A stretch of DNA of 64,000 bases from Moniliophthora roreri (lineage: Eukaryota > Basidiomycota > Agaricomycetes > Agaricales > Marasmiaceae): contig LATX02000209.1 of assembly GCA_001466705.2 (NCBI GenBank), positions 372,001 to 436,000 on the forward strand, written 5' to 3'. The notes beneath the pieces were generated by a model, which saw only the letters and a list, made by a program, of their open reading frames with translations, was not told the DNA's origin and did no database searches. The position numbers and the translations under genes are program-made. The first letter of the stretch is position 1, and every line of letters begins with the position of its first letter. This document shows, piece by piece, positions 1 through 63,950 of the stretch.

Positions 1-873
1 CGGGATTATGCATGTTCCTGCCCAATCGACCACAAGGTCCATGGTTATCATAAAACCAAAGATGGGACGCTGCTTGCCTCCTACGCTATCGTGGCCATTA
101 CAATGTAGAATAGCTGTAGCCATCTTGCACGTCGCGTACTCAGATTCGACATGCTAAACACTTGCATGCGCCCGGACTCAATTCATGAAACCAAGAACGA
201 AAGGCTATCCTCAAAAATTCAGCTACGAGTATTCTCTTTCGATGATTGTGATGTTCATCAAGTCATCTGCGATCTTTTCGCGACAACGGCATCAGCTACG
301 GGCCGGTGATTTATAGGGATGAATCAAGGACGAATCAAAATACATCAATAACTGGCCTGTCAGGTGGATGACAACCCTGTGAACAAGGGCTGTCGTCTCA
401 AGGCAAACTTGTGGTGTCCCCTCTGCGTTCTCCCCCCAAGCCCCGACCTCTTCAACAGTATTGCCATCGAAATACACTTCTATGTGCAAGAATATGAGCC
501 TCAAGAAATTGTTCAAGAAGTACATTCTTAATCAGTCATATTGTTCCGAAAACTCACATTCTTCGTCAGATTGCCAGCTGCCCCGACACCTACTCTTACT
601 GCCATGAATGTCCTTCAGATGTTGCCTTGGCCCAATGTTGCTGCTTTTACCCAAACGTGCATCTTTAGTCACTCTGATTGCTGCCAGAATCTCATTTTTT
701 CACCAGATTGTCAGCCACATCGACATCTACAACTGCTACTGCTACCATGGGAGTAACCACTGCATTGTAATAATTCACATATAACACTATTCTGGTAGAG
801 ATCTGATTGTGTTCCCAGGTCTTCTGTCACACCAGCAACTTCCTTGCCTACATTGGGTAGCACTGCTGAAGAC
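1..873. other. left edge, no gene resolved
   Basis: I see no gene I can support here. Bases 1-107 are open in one forward frame and could be the last piece of an exon starting outside the window, but I do not recognise the peptide. CpG dinucleotides are common up to about 530 and become rare after that, so a compositional boundary falls near 530-540. The stretch 541-873 may hold 5' sequence of the next gene, but no convincing upstream exon could be joined to it. Confidence 0.4.
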
Positions 874-3752
874 ATGTCCTCTATCAATCCACATTTGACA
901 TCTGGTGTCACAAATAAGGATGCTATTCTTGGGGGTACAAAGACTACCTTGAAAGTTGGTGTAGCAGCTGTAGAGGGTGTTCCTGTGGTTGGAACAGCCA
1001 TCAAGGGTGCAATTAGTGCCATTTTGGAGATTTTTACTGTGATTGAGGTGAGCAGATATTATAGCTTTTTTCAAGGCAACTGACTGCAAAACCAACTCTA
1101 GCAAATTACTAACAATAATGGGGAGATACTCCTGTTGACATGGAAGCTACGTAACCTCCTACAGAGGGTTGACAACATACAAAAGACTATGCCAGACAAA
1201 AACCGTGACCAAGTATATAAGTAAGTGATATGCTAAGGAAAGATTAATATCTACAACACTGACCAATGTCAGAGAGTTGTTGTCATTACACCAGCTCTTG
1301 GATCAGTTACAAGGAGAATGGAGGACTAAATTTGCAGCTGAAACAGTTTCCAAAACACTGCAGGATATTAAAAGTGAAATTGATAGTACACTAATTGAAT
1401 ATACTGTAAGAGGTTATTCATCTCTCAAGATCACTTGTTGACCAGAAGACAGGCCCTATCACAAATGAAATTACAACAAACACTTGAGGAAATCCACATA
1501 TTCTCAATAGGTGTCACCATTAGGGATGCAGCAGGTCGAAGATTTCCAATCTCTACTGATATCCTTCTACAGCCAGAGGTATGTGGGTACTTCAAAACTA
1601 GAACTTACATTCATGAAACTATTATAATTCACCTTAGTCTGTTGGAGACTACCTGAAGGTTTTATTTCAATATCCAAAAGAGGATGGCAAGCAAATTAGT
1701 AGGAAGTTGCTTGCATTGATGGAATTGGGTCAGTATAGCCTGTCTAATGTAAAAGATGGACAGGTTATCAGGTTGGGGAATGGTAAGAAAAAGTGGCCAA
1801 GAGTAGAGCCTGGGTCAGAGATTGTGATGAGTGCTATTGTATGGCAGAAGAAGGAGGATAACAATTCTGTTGGCTATAGATGTCCTGTCTGCAAAGAGTG
1901 GAATGGTAGTCTGGAGCAGAAGAGGAATATAGCTGAGGATTGGTGAGTTCCAGTAATTATATTCATAAGTATTTCATTCTTGGCTGAAATTATCACAGAA
2001 TGCAGAATGCCTTAGAAGGTTCCAAGCAATTGAAGAAGAGGAAAAGTCAATTGTTGCCAAAGGCAGCAGAGGGCTAAAGAGAAATGTCAATGTAAATATC
2101 ATGCAAAATATTCATATAATACAGGTAGGTCAATATTTAGTATTTACAGACTAGATTCTGACTTCTAGAAAGTGTGTTTTCCATTAATCATAACAATAGG
2201 GCCCTACTGACTGTTCTGGACTTGGTTCTGACTATCAGCCAGTGAGTGTTCCAATAAACTGTGGCAATAAAGCCCTACTGACTGTCCTGGACTTGGTTCT
2301 GACTCTCAGAATGTGAGTATTCCCACAACCTGTGACAATAGAGCCCAACTGACTGTCCTGGACTTGGTTCTGACTCTCAGGTTGTGAGTGTCCCCACAAC
2401 ATGTGACAATAGAGCCCAACTGACTGTTCTGGACTTGGTTCTGACTCTCAGGTTGTGAGTGTTCCCACAACCTGTGACAATAGAGCTCAACTGACTGTCC
2501 TGGACTTGGTTTTGACTTCCAGTTTGTGAGTGTTGCCACAACCTGTGGCAGTAGAGCCCAACTGACTGTCCTGGACTTGGTTCTAACTCTCAGCTTGTGA
2601 GTGTTCCCACAACCTGTGGCAATAGAGCCCAACTGACTGTTCTGGACTGGGTTCTGACTCTCAGCATGTGGGTGTTCCCACAACCTGTGGCAACAGAGCC
2701 CAACTGACTTGACTGTCCTGGACTTGGCACTGACTCTCAGAATGTGAGTGTTCCCACAACCTGTGACAATAGAGCTCTACTGACTGTTCTGGATTTTTTC
2801 TGGCTCTCAGCCTGTAAGTGTTCCCACAACCTGTGACAATAGAGCCCAGCTGACTGTCCTGGACTTGGTTCTGACTGTCAGCATGTGAGTGTTCCCACAA
2901 CCTGTGACAATAGAGCCCAACTGACTGTCCTGAACTTGGTTCTGACTCTTAGAAAGTGAGTTTTCCCACAACCTGCGACAATAGAGCCCTACTGACTGTC
3001 CTGGACTTGGTTCTGACTCTCAGAAAGTGAATGTTCCCACAGCCTGTGACAATAGAGCCCAACTGACTGTCCTGGACTTGGTTCTGACTCTCAGGTTGTG
3101 AGTGTTTCCACAATCTGTGGCAATAGAGCCCAACTGACTGTTCTGGACTTGGTTTTGACTTTTAGCAGGTGAGTGTTTCCACAATCTGTAACAATAGAGC
3201 CTAACTGACTGTCCTGGACTTGGTTCTGACTCTCAGCTTGTTAGTATTCCCACAACCTGTAACAATGGAGCCCAACTGACTGTCAGCATGTGAGTGTTCC
3301 CACAACCTGTGGCAATAGAGCCCAACTGACTGTCCTGGACTTGGTTCTGACTCTCAGGTTGTGAGTGTTTCCACAATCTGTGGCAATAGAGCCCAACTGA
3401 CTGTTCTGGACTTGGTTTTGACTTTTAGCAGGTGAGTGTTTCCACAATCTGTAACAATAGAGCCTAACTGACTGTCCTGGACTTGGTTCTGACTCTCAGC
3501 ATGTGAGTGTTCCCATAACCTGTGGCAATAGAGCCCAACTGACTGTCTTGAGCTTGGTTCTGACTCTTAGGAAGTGAGTCTCCCTACAGCCTGTGACAAT
3601 GGAGCTCAACTGACTGTCCTGGACCTGGTTCTGACTCTCAGAATGTGAGTGTTCCCACAACCTGTAACAATAGAGCCAACTGACTGTCCTGGACTTGGGT
3701 TTAACTTTTGATGCAGAGCATATTTAGAGAAAATCCTAGAAAAGGTTATTAA
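874..3752 (+). CDS. ubiquitin-like-domain (ULD-type) protein with N-terminal helical adaptor region
   Basis: Six exons can be laid out with GT-AG introns: 874-1047, 1102-1220, 1273-1405, 1453-1578, 1638-1942 and about 1999-2124. The first exons give a helical stretch with the pattern VEGVPVVGTAIKGAI, as in the N-terminal adaptor regions of fungal NACHT/MLKL-like proteins. Exons 4-5 match the fungal ubiquitin-like domain (start GVTIRDAAGRRFPI), followed by a cysteine pair (YRCPVCKEW) and, in exon 6, ECLRRFQ, the usual end of this architecture. The phase between exons 5 and 6 is off by one, so there is a small error, an unusual splice, or early decay. Exon 6 ends in phase 0 at a GTAGGT donor that leads straight into the intron-like array. 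After the array a last short exon (3717-3752, SIFRENPRKGY then stop) would close the gene. The extension past 2124 is inference. Family known, function not; such proteins are linked to fungal signalling and immunity-like modules. Confidence 0.55.
2172..3716 (+). repeat. 71-bp tandem array of intron-like units
   Basis: Twenty-two successive units, mostly exactly 71 bp apart, have donor-like GT at 2172, 2242, 2313, 2384, 2455, 2526, 2597, 2668, 2744, 2814, 2885, 2956, 3027, 3098, 3169, 3240, 3290, 3361, 3432, 3503, 3574 and 3645. Nearly every unit starts GTGAGT and ends CTGAC-TCTCAG, i.e. donor, branch point and acceptor of a 68-nt intron. Exactly 3 nt separate each AG from the next GT. One unit is 76 bp (a 5-bp GACTT duplication) and one is 50 bp (deletion). 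The donors at 3098/3169 recur at 3361/3432, which shows a larger internal duplication. The reverse strand is open over part of the array only because 3 units equal 71 codons. Confidence 0.95.
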
Positions 3753-40887: not shown

Positions 40888-42951
40888 ATTTTTCGATCTT
40901 AGTGTTTTAAACTTCTGCAACTTTATTTATACCTGGCCCAGGTGAACAAGACGCCATTTTCCCATACCCTTCATTTGGAACCTGTATTTTGACATATAGC
41001 ATAGGGCTTAGCGTATAGTTTGGGTAGAACATGTACCGCTGTGCAGGCTTATGTAGGACTATATAGAAGACCACATTCTACACAGACTATGGGCTGAGTT
41101 GAACCGAGTGGTCAAGCTCAGTGAAACTAGGCCCTGGGTACCGCCGTGAGCAGACGACGTGAGATGATGACAGATGCCAACAGATGCTTATTATCAAATT
41201 GGTAAATTGAGAGTTACTACAACGAGCAGTGATGACGGTAGTAGTGAACAACGTGTGTGTTTATTGCTGTTAAAATGCATCCATTACTGTGTCTGACAAC
41301 GGGTGACAATGAGCGACTACTATAGCAGTCGGGTGCCTCTCGAGAATGCCCTCGGTGGACCCTCTCCCCACCTCTCCCTGTCTCTCCCTGCCCATCTGCT
41401 GCACCCACTGCACCCCGATGCATGCTACCCACCACCTGGTCACTGTGCTCACCCACCAGATCGTGTGATGTCGGGGCAAAGACAAAACCTGGGGGGAGCA
41501 TAAGTCACATGCGAAAACTGAGATGTAGATAACAATGACATACCTTGTATGATGATATACCAGTGGTCTGACGATTCTGGGGCTTGAGAGACATGCTGGG
41601 TAGGTATATTAGCTACATAGCAACATTATAACTTGCAGGTCACTCACTAAGCTGAGTCCAGACCCTGTCCCATTGAACGCTACCCGAAGATAGCAGAGGA
41701 GAGAAACTGAACCGCTTGACTCCTTGCATAGATCATCATCAGCTCCGATCTCAAGGGCTGTTTAACTGGGCGGTCAGCTTGACTTTTGAGGGAGATGAGT
41801 ACGCACAACTTGATGCTTCATCCCCACTCCCAAACATGACTTCTCACTGCACGTGCAGCCTGACGCGTCTCCCGCACCTCCAACGTTGGTCTCAATGTCT
41901 CTGAATGGCCCAGCTTCCCCTCTCCCCCTCCCGTTGAACCAAGCACCTCATGCTCGTACTGAATACTTTTTGCCTATACTGGACCTGTTGCCTCCCATCA
42001 ATACTGGCGACGTTCCTGATGACAGCGGCGATTGGTGATAGAGGCAATCCCGATGGAGGCGATTAAGCACCTATGACAAAAAAGAAGGCCATTGGGTGCA
42101 AGCGGAAGATGGGCAATGCTCAGCAGCAGAACAGTGAACCTGAACAGCCCCGAATGTCACTGGCAGAGAAGAGGGCATCAGCAGCTGAGAAGAGGAAGGT
42201 GACGATACAGAGAAGGAGAGAAGAGGCAAACTGAAAGGCAGCAGAGATAGCAGCTGCGAAGGATAAGCTCGGTGAGGATGTGTCAGATGAAGATGGCACT
42301 GTTTCTGGGACAAAGAGATCATCAGGTGACAAGGAAGCTGTCAGGCGACCAAAAAGGATCAGGACTACCCCAGCCCCTTTGCATGAGGCTGGGTATGTTC
42401 AGCCATCTAAAGGTACTCGAGGCAGCTAATCGAAGTAGCACATAGCACACTTTTTTGTACCCTAGTAGTAGATTGACAATTTTGATCAGTGTCTATTAGC
42501 CAGGCGCCTAATTTTCAAGTACGTGTGAATTGAATTTTTCGAGCACGTGTGAATTGAACTTATGAGTTCTCTCAACCAACATGCTCTCAATGCAACACAA
42601 ATACAAATGAACATCAACAATCCCACCTATATAAATCCTTCTTAGACACTCTTCTGTTTACTCTACTTACTCAACAAAGTACCACGACTATTGGCCACAC
42701 GACTTTTCATCTATCAACTCACCTCTACACGAGTTAACATGATCTTCAATGTGTTTTCACGGTATGTTCTACTTTTTTCTTCAATAATAATAGCTAAACA
42801 TCTCACGTAGATGACGTCCCTGATTCCAAAGATGAACTTCTGTTGACAGGCAGAGCTGTCAATCAAAATGATGGGCCGAAAGGTGCATTTAATTTGTCTG
42901 ATTCTACACTCATAATCTGAGCTCAATGCAGCTGATAACGTTGAAATCTAT
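40888..42951. other. region with remnants of a basic, low-complexity protein
   Basis: No complete gene. At 42071-42429 a forward frame encodes a Lys/Arg/Ala-rich stretch (SLAEKRASAAEKRKVTIQRR), one in-frame TGA, then DKLGEDVSDEDGTVSG and RRPKRIRTTPA, like a nuclear or nucleic-acid-binding remnant; it could be part of a mobile element. At 41853-42038 a Pro-rich frame ends in DDSGDW. The rest is unassigned. Confidence 0.35.
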
Positions 42952-49710: not shown

Positions 49711-51125
49711 TCCCGCTCAATGCTCACATTTCAAAGTATTGTACTCAATGTGCGAACCGATGTAACAGGAATGCAAAGATATATTACTTCTTGCTGTCAT
49801 GGAGGTATTGGAAGTAACGGAACGATAATCGGGATCCAGGCGGAGTGGTTTATGCAGCTGATTAGCAACATTTACTACTGGTGCTGTCACTCCATGTTCG
49901 AGTTTGGGTGGTCTCATGCGATTGTTGTGAACTTCAACTTTTTTTGTCTTACTCCCCCCATGGCTGTGATTATTCAAAATGCACTGATTATTATAATTCA
50001 GCCGATATATAGGCAGCTGGAAAAACAAACTTGCACCATTAAAATCAGAAGGTTGGTATGCTCGGAGACCGGTCACTGGCTCACATTTCAGCTGGTTTCA
50101 TCGCAGTTCAAAGGGATTGTGAATCTTTCAGTCAGCGGTACGTCGGTTGGCTCGTGTGGAAACTATAAGGGGCTGGGTTCCAGACGACTCAATTGCAACT
50201 TATAATTCGGACTTCCACAAATTGTGCGTCGACAAGTTCACACACCATCTGTACCTTTCACGTAAATCATCCGTATCTTTCACGTACACCATCCATATAC
50301 TTCACGCACGCATTCCCTTATTCTTCCGTATCTCTTATATACAGCTACCACTGATATACTGAATTGCTGCTGCCTGTGACTAGATTCCTTAAGAGCTGCC
50401 TCACCTCATCCAAACAGCTTGATCATACGCATTGTTTCCTCTGAGAATGACTTGGAAACAAGTCAAGAACACAGATCCCTCAGATACAAACTTAACTTCC
50501 AACACGCCGATGCATGCAAGTGAAACACGCCAATGATCAATAAATTCGCAGTACATTCATGTCACAGAGAGTGCGTCGCTCCATCAAAATACGTTGATGG
50601 AACACGATTCCAGCGATGGAGTACAATTTCTGATGAAATATGTCATCATAAAAAAGGCCTGCTGAGTTTCTCTGACTGTTGGATATGAATGCTGAGTGCT
50701 AAAAGTTAAACCTGCGATAAGCCAGAAAGGTCAACTTGAAGAGACTCACGGAGGCCGCGCGACGTCGATGGGCCAAGCGCCCAAGTCTTTCCTCACAAAC
50801 CCTGCTCTCTTGATTCCCCCATTAATGGGTTCGATTGCCAAATCTTGGTAATGATGATTCCTATGCACATCCCGGTCTGATTCGCTCCATCGCGTCTCTC
50901 AACGACGGCCCAATACTTATAGGAGGTAATCGGCGTCGATACTGCTGAACAGTGAAGATCGCGTTAAAAGATTGATTAGAGGTGAGTAGAGATTTATTTA
51001 TTTATTTTTTCATTATGCTTATACACGATAAAAACACAATGATATTTGAATGTAGAGGCATTAGCGAGGGGCCGGGTCAAGCACAGAGAACATGAACAGG
51101 CACCGAATAGGGGAGGGAACTGCAA
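49711..51125. other. host flank of element C, no gene resolved
   Basis: No supported gene; a 175-codon forward frame from 49678 begins inside element C and is rejected. About 22-bp units resembling CCATCCGTATCTTTCACGTA occur three times at 50245-50315. The part 50700-50830 is a diverged copy of 53500-53640. Confidence 0.4.
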
Positions 51126-63480: not shown

Positions 63481-63950
63481 CATTACATTATAATATCCTT
63501 ACAACAGGATTATAAAGGTTACAACATATGATAATAAATCCAGCTAGATTTTAAGTGTATTGTAGCCTAGTTGCAATATATTGAAATATTTTAACTGCCT
63601 TACAACCCCATTACAACTACATTACAACTGTCTGGAAGGATTACCTGACATTATAGCCACATTACAACCACATTACAACCCACATAGAGTCATTACAACA
63701 AGTTAAAACCCCAGTACATGCACATTATAACACAATTTCAAATATAAGTAAAGTTCTTAGTGCAACAGCATATAAAAACCCATGCAACATGACAATGTAA
63801 CAAGGCTTTATTATTAGATACACCTATTTATGTTTATAATGAAACTGATTTTTAATCAATAAATGATAAGCCGGTGTGGGTAGAATAAAATGTTTTGGAG
63901 ATAGGTCTTTTAGTAAAAGGGTATAATGCACTGTGTATGTTTATAGTTAT
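63481..63950. other. AT-rich tract with ATTACAAC repeats
   Basis: Between 63595 and 63690 the motif CATTACAACC or close variants occurs about seven times at irregular spacing; isolated variants lie at 63484-63520. No gene. Possibly the subterminal region of another mobile element that interrupts the GST-block copy. Confidence 0.5.

Follow-up and report, generated by a model that had tools for sequence, protein, structure and literature searches.

A fundamental question raised by this stretch of the Moniliophthora roreri genome is how does a gene accommodate, at positions 2172..3716 of the forward strand, 22 introns in tandem with 3 nucleotides (nt) between every AG and the next GT? The window (the whole stretch of DNA analysed, 64,000 nt) is part of contig C108 in the 59.4-Mb genome of this fungus, which infects cacao. 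The original prediction set out three possibilities: that the array is a run of single-codon micro-exons, that it is an unspliced minisatellite born from an intron, or that it is part of a very large intron with recursive splice sites. Sequence evidence strongly supports the first. We favour it, at a probability of roughly 0.85, because stop codons are depleted in one frame only, the 3-nt spacing persists after most insertions and deletions, the putative branch-point A is kept, CAG codons are avoided and two of the spelled peptides match proteins of the same genome. The triplets would then be translated one-codon exons, and the ~68-nt units true spliceosomal introns.

Architecture of the window array

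The predicted layout of 22 units with constant one-codon gaps was confirmed, and all spacers in the window are 3 nt. The period is mostly 71 bp, and the other unit sizes (70 bp twice, 76 and 50 bp) arise inside the intron part, as had been proposed. The predicted tally of triplets is exact when the AAA at 2169-2171 is counted (CAT and GTT 4 each; AAA and AAT 3 each; CAG and CTT 2 each; CCA, TTT, CCT and GAA 1 each). When the window was shuffled 20 times by mononucleotides, no chain of AG-NNN-GT reached 5 steps in any of the shuffles. The predicted features of the array are as follows.

2125..2168 (+): intron GTAGGT...TTCTAG preceding the first one-codon exon
2169..2171 (+): first one-codon exon, AAA (K)
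2172..3716 (+): 22 near-identical introns, mostly 68 nt, enclosing 21 one-codon exons
One-codon exons, first block (+): CCA 2239, AAT 2310, GTT 2381, GTT 2452, TTT 2523, CTT 2594, CAT 2665
One-codon exons, second block (+): AAT 2741, CCT 2811, CAT 2882, AAA 2953, AAA 3024, GTT 3095, CAG 3166
One-codon exons, third block (+): CTT 3237, CAT 3287, GTT 3358, CAG 3429, CAT 3500, GAA 3571, AAT 3642
3717..3752 (+): last exon SIFRENPRKGY*, in frame

Read in order, the AAA at 2169 and the 21 array codons spell the tail KPNVVFLHNPHKKVQLHVQHEN. The frame of the last exon is also open in the paralogues at loci L009 (SIVRENPRKGY*) and L010 (SGFKANSRKGY*).

Spacing and coding constraint across the arrays

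Related arrays allow the triplets to be examined in number. Nineteen genomic regions (loci) were examined first, followed by 3, 1 and 1 more, and a 68-nt intron profile identified 445 units in 18 of the first 19, on a single strand within each locus. Raw spacers measure 3 nt in 404 of 434 cases, and 4 of the other 30 lie between different arrays. Inspection by eye of the 26 off-register short spacers revealed that 19 retain AG-NNN-GT, since an insertion or deletion had shifted the intron end, and that 7 are true exceptions. A decoder with a uniform prior on exon length (1-30 nt) assigned 3 nt to 420 of 429 exons; a second decoder, permissive on sites and favouring 3 nt, did so for 439 of 447 exons in 14 arrays.

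If the triplets are translated, stop codons should be rare in their own frame, and 1 stop was observed in 425 internal triplets of the second decode, where the base composition of the individual arrays predicts 14.3. The same triplet strings contain 15 stops in 413 codons in the +1 frame and 34 in 413 in the +2 frame. Tryptophan and methionine codons are in excess, with TGG:TGA at 14:2 against a G:A ratio of 55:200 in other codons (p 1e-7) and ATG:ATA at 13:3, contrary to the general third-base preference (p 2e-7); the codon tests count related units as independent, so these p-values are too small and indicative only. Single-base codon differences between close units gave 510 non-synonymous and 7 synonymous pairs (neutral ratio 3.55), an excess not relied on because pairs overlap in the units they compare and some of it is accounted for by donor-site constraints on the third base. 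The original prediction also held the triplet to be the most variable part of the unit. Measured per column (71 columns, 433 units, genome-wide), this applies to codon positions 1 and 2, each of which exceeds all intron columns with 1.87 bits, and fails for position 3, whose 1.49 bits fall below the top intron columns (maximum 1.63, mean 0.69). Seven last exons following arrays were read, and all are open in the frame required by phase-0 triplets; in L009 a 1-nt last spacer would disrupt the frame of that exon.

These observations bear directly on the proposal that recursive splicing excises a single large intron in steps, with the triplets as ratchet points absent from the messenger RNA (mRNA). 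The AG-NNN-GT junction does look like a recursive site. However, recursive sites do not require sense codons, and the stop depletion, the TGG and ATG excess and the peptide matches described below are left unexplained. A single large recursive intron was rejected for these reasons and is very improbable.

Conservation of splice signals

The four oldest arrays (140 units) are the most informative for the introns themselves. In these, the A at intron position 40, within the first CTGAC, is kept in 99% of units and is the best-kept internal position, which suggests a conserved branch-point A. The motif CTNAY occurs in 131 of the 140 introns, compared with a mean of 64 and a maximum of 82 in shuffles. 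A CAG codon would add a second acceptor (AGCAG), and it is rare: CAA:CAG stands at 50:6 against GAA:GAG at 23:18 (p 3e-4). The corresponding ratios in the upstream exons of the window gene are 9:9 and 6:14. Third-base C occurs in 2 of 439 array codons, compared with 36 of 285 in the same upstream exons.

Spelled tails that match proteins of the same genome

Six spelled tails (L015, L016, L028, L026, the joint array L022/23 and the window) were searched against the organism's own genome. The L015 tail, which reads ...LPDERPRQSVANLIGRFEQQ, has one match, at E 8.6e-7 over 20 of 22 residues, and 11 of the 20 identical residues use a different synonymous codon. The matched motif, PLPDERPR[AQ]SVANLIGRFEQQ, begins a conserved uncharacterised Agaricomycete protein; 16 of 35 homologues agree with the tail at 20/20 motif positions, and M. 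roreri's own copy has A for Q. The L016 tail likewise has one match, a glycogenin-like GT8 protein (PF01501; E 1.3e-4) whose homologues carry the name glycogenin (59 proteins). Here 21 of 28 core residues agree, 14 of them with a synonymous change, and the differences include alanines in place of the motif's T, Q and S. Among 500 shuffles of each of these two tails, none equalled the real score against the respective target protein. Pfam scans of the tails returned sub-threshold matches only, and a Protein Data Bank (PDB) search with the L016 tail gave motif-level matches to a fucose-binding lectin.

One could still ask whether the array is a neutral, intron-derived minisatellite lying unspliced in a large intron or in the 3' flank. 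Its tandem structure and 71-bp period, block duplications that move codon and intron together, and public gene models that ignore the array all accord with such a repeat. What it does not account for is 1 stop in 425 triplets in a single frame only, AG-NNN-GT retained at 19 of 26 altered junctions, triplets that spell conserved proteins with synonymous differences, and a branch-point A conserved in old arrays. With the spacer evidently under both coding and splice constraint, the neutral minisatellite was rejected as extremely improbable.

A variant of translated one-codon exons, rather than its opposite, is that the codons serve mainly as an alternatively spliced set yielding many isoforms that differ in the codons they include, as has been reported for the nank genes of Tuber. 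The regular array exons are all 3 nt, so that skipping keeps the frame. The 20 consecutive identical residues of the L015 tail nevertheless suggest inclusion in order, and the avoidance of CAG suggests selection against skipping, which makes predominant alternative splicing rather unlikely.

Host gene and encoded protein

The array belongs to gene WG66_013148, since a 285-residue piece encoded by the host gene is 100% identical to the public M. roreri protein of that name. The upstream part of the gene comprises the following features.

482..2124 (+): upstream exons and ordinary introns of WG66_013148, closing in phase 0 with ...NIMQNIHIIQ
1999..2124 (+): exon with a 4-nt deletion at its 5' end relative to L009 (by eye)

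At the exon 1999..2124 the public WG66_013148 protein jumps to a downstream acceptor. A ULD_2 domain (PF22893) was found in the L015 protein above the cut-off of 24.5 (31.3 bits, E 2.3e-7) and just under it in the window gene (23.9 bits, E 5e-5) and in paralogue P0002 (22.0 bits); protein P0003, which ends before the domain would be complete, has no ULD_2 match. The Cys motif YRCPVC follows the ULD_2 region in the host gene. The helical N-terminus, which has a weak MLKL_N match, is presumably of the HeLo-like kind. Scanned against Pfam, the proteins of the window and L015 genes, P0002 and P0003 showed no NACHT, NB-ARC or ankyrin domain. Copies at contig C34 (L029) and at 272 kb of contig C93 (L028) carry a GGxFNN motif near the N-terminus (by eye) that is not in the window gene; we take this motif to be one common in Agaricomycete NLR-type genes.

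Weighing the proposal of translated one-codon exons

Beyond the dependence between related units noted above, a number of observations weigh against translated one-codon exons. The first group concerns the regularity of the arrays. True spacer exceptions comprise a 1-nt last spacer common to L009 and L012, one in L014, and two each in L019 and L021, and 8 of the 404 3-nt spacers have no AG or GT at the aligned place, 2 of these being GC donors (by eye). Stops also appear when triplets are placed differently. The decoder that favours 3 nt gives 4 stops in 439 codons, three at the last array codon (L010, L026, L028) and one TAG inside L023; in other decodes, including that with the uniform prior, one further codon (TCA) follows the terminal TGA of L028. 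Raw spacers contain 3 stops in 404, and looser placement gives 6 in 474, the extra, dubious stops lying at an assembly-gap edge in L019 and at the 1-nt spacer of L021. Conservation of GT and AG in the oldest-array set comes from the way units were selected. Since GAA:GAG in the arrays also deviates from the upstream exons, the third-base bias is partly not specific to CAG, and this GAA:GAG difference is itself not significant (p 0.06).

The second group concerns the gene and its product. The public models of WG66_013148 (ending ...NIHIIQTL) and of P0002 (ending ...NIHIIQVSQ) both stop at the array. Because of the 4-nt deletion at 1999, the window's own copy may be impaired upstream although its array is intact. 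Among the proteins scanned, ULD_2 exceeds the Pfam cut-off in L015 only; the MLKL_N match is weak, far below cut-off and confined to the window gene and P0002, and it is absent from the Pfam list for L015. No own-genome match was found for the tails of L028 (E <= 1), or of L026, L022/23 and the window (E <= 10).

These points leave translated one-codon exons the preferred reading. Judged from the genomic sequence, the architecture, the frame, the constraint on codons and splice signals and the two peptide matches appear secure, and from them we infer actual splicing and the inclusion of all codons. Removal of 22 introns (up to 87 in a paralogue) would join single codons in phase 0 to the exon ending ...NIHIIQ and to the short last exon. 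Short introns are recognised one by one, by intron definition, and this mode would permit stepwise removal of the introns despite exons of 3 nt. The product would be a protein in which a helical N-terminus and a ULD_2 ubiquitin-like domain precede a variable C-terminal tail.

Distribution of the arrays in the genome

An array query of 329 bases has at least 127 matches in the genome. With the array of L028, which is only ~68% identical to the others, the intron profile has 491 matches at E <= 10 in the loci examined, of which 474 have AG-NNN-GT or AG-NNN-GC at the aligned place or up to 8 nt off. Within one gene family, 15 arrays come after a shared exon that has NIHIIQ or a variant at its end, at the loci listed here.

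Arrays after the NIHIIQ exon: L009, L010, L011 (the window), L013, L014, L015 (two copies, the second with stops) and L016
Further arrays after the NIHIIQ exon: L018, L019, L021, L023, L025, L026 and L028

The larger arrays hold 22 to 87 introns. The L012 array begins at a contig end, and more array pieces occur within L018 to L020. On contig C115, L022 continues the L023 array beyond a large insertion, probably a transposable element, for ~64 units altogether; sequence after the L023 part is found again just before the L022 part begins. In total, ~500 unit copies were found, nearly all in this one gene family. The exceptions are a lone unit on contig C100 (L017:4001-4066) and a two-unit piece on contig C117 (L024:4024-4158), and a DNA search with their flanks found no unit-free second copy of either site among the matches listed. 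The flank of the two-unit piece (query part 769-901) belongs to a dispersed repeat, of which the genome has dozens of ~92% copies.

A copy at C34:142434 that lacks an array terminates at an assembly gap. Near-identical copies beside single N bases (L029 at C34:142434-144329, L018 and L019) look like assembly duplications. Tandem Repeats Finder (TRF) reported other short tandem repeats in the window at 50244-50306, 42512-42558 and 63648-63685.

Origin of the arrays

How does an array arise in which near-identical introns separate unrelated codons? One hypothesis is that a contiguous tail already existed and that introns were copied in a burst between its codons, such that the introns are young and the codons older. 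The L015 and L016 tails are unrelated, yet their array introns are as close between the loci (0.156) as within them (0.143 and 0.154) and about as diverged as the ordinary introns of the two genes (25/174 sites, 0.144). The two arrays are not colinear (rho 0.08), and codons agree at 8% of best-matching introns compared with 4% for any pair. Five L013 introns are identical (68/68) beside GTT, CAA, CGA, GTT and TTT, four different codons. Two tails are homologous to contiguous genes, and excess linkage between intron sites is small.

However, to our knowledge no process inserts introns every 3 nt, and several patterns count against a pure burst. Codon-intron blocks do duplicate. Adjacent introns resemble each other more than random ones do in 7 of 14 loci (p <= 0.05), and introns beside the same codon do so in 4 of 14; linkage, though weak, exceeds shuffles (p <= 0.04) in 6 of 9 loci and is strongest at short range. 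Colinear locus pairs exist (L013-L018, rho 0.88; L013-L023, rho 0.77), and best-matching introns share codons more often than any pair does in L011-L012 (0.29 vs 0.10) and L022-L023 (0.27 vs 0.10). Codons agree in 10 of the 24 within-locus pairs of identical introns (68/68), and L013 alone supplies 10 of the 14 pairs in which they do not. Gene conversion limited to introns, with selection on codons, could mimic the burst pattern as well. The chance of a burst is somewhat short of even.

The young arrays L013, L018 and L019 end in four identical CAA units and start with similar units, and the interior differs. Slow tandem duplication followed by point mutation of the codons is unlikely to have acted alone, given that 65% of 37 within-locus pairs identical at intron free sites have different codons. 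Two scenarios agree with the data: bursts of intron copying together with block duplication, or conversion confined to the introns while selection maintains the codons. Over ~1.2 kb upstream of the arrays, 242 of 1196 sites differ between L015 and L016, compared with 25 of 174 in four introns, which suggests that the coding exons there evolve fast.

A possible role for the tails

Because two paralogues reproduce conserved linear motifs of the organism's own proteins, a tail may engage the same partner as the copied protein or be attacked by the same foreign factor. The most likely role in this proposal is that of a recognition or bait segment, a function we put forward tentatively, with the odds against it. 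Since each DNA repeat carries one codon, codons could be added, lost or exchanged without a frameshift. A fuller hypothesis, in which an active process interleaves a fresh intron copy after every codon and the tails display own motifs as baits on ULD_2 proteins, rewritable codon by codon, is unlikely as a whole.

If translated one-codon exons are confirmed, each of up to 86 consecutive codons would be an exon of its own, a demanding case for models of how exons and introns are defined, and the use of one-codon exon arrays would extend to a second fungal phylum. The two tails matching conserved own motifs offer a testable link to recognition or decoy function, and near-identical introns beside unrelated codons would make intron origin testable in living strains. 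Annotation can miss such arrays, as both public models that reach the array end there.

Comparison with known systems

Very short exons are spliced elsewhere. Single cases, as described in the parts of the literature consulted, are a 1-nt exon in Arabidopsis (PMC4674806), a very short exon in Fusarium CYP621A (PMC12940212) and a 3-bp exon in Drosophila hth (PMC7392893); these show that exons of 1-3 nt can be spliced, whereas M. roreri has runs of dozens. The micro-exon genes (MEGs) of Schistosoma are reported to have exons of 3-81 bp and introns up to 5 kbp (PMC10526429). The M. roreri arrays resemble them in very short exons and differ in near-identical introns of ~68 nt and in that nearly every array exon is one codon. 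Introners, or introner-like elements, as outlined in PMC9860276 and PMC4457414, are likewise many near-identical, apparently copied spliceosomal introns per genome. Those are defined by their presence in many unrelated genes, whereas the M. roreri copies found lie nearly all 3 nt apart in one gene family, the strays on C100 and C117 apart.

The closest parallel is the nank (NACHT-ankyrin) multigene family of Tuber melanosporum, which is described as having tens of codon-sized (3-bp) microexons (Iotti et al. 2012, cited in PMC4986451, PMC3689799 and PMC10197012). According to the same citing papers, a role in non-self recognition has been proposed for nank proteins and alternative splicing has been reported. 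M. roreri likewise has a multigene family in which introns separate tens of predicted 3-bp exons in a row. Tuber is an ascomycete with NACHT-ankyrin proteins; the M. roreri arrays are in a basidiomycete and follow a ULD_2 protein, and none of the proteins scanned matched NACHT or ankyrin. Unlike nank as described there, M. roreri has up to 86 predicted one-codon exons and two tails that copy conserved own motifs. The basidiomycete setting, the other gene family and the copied own motifs were not found in print in the open-licence literature searched. On these accounts, fungal genes of the recognition type with runs of one-codon exons are already known from Tuber, and M. roreri adds another phylum, another gene family and two motif-copying tails.
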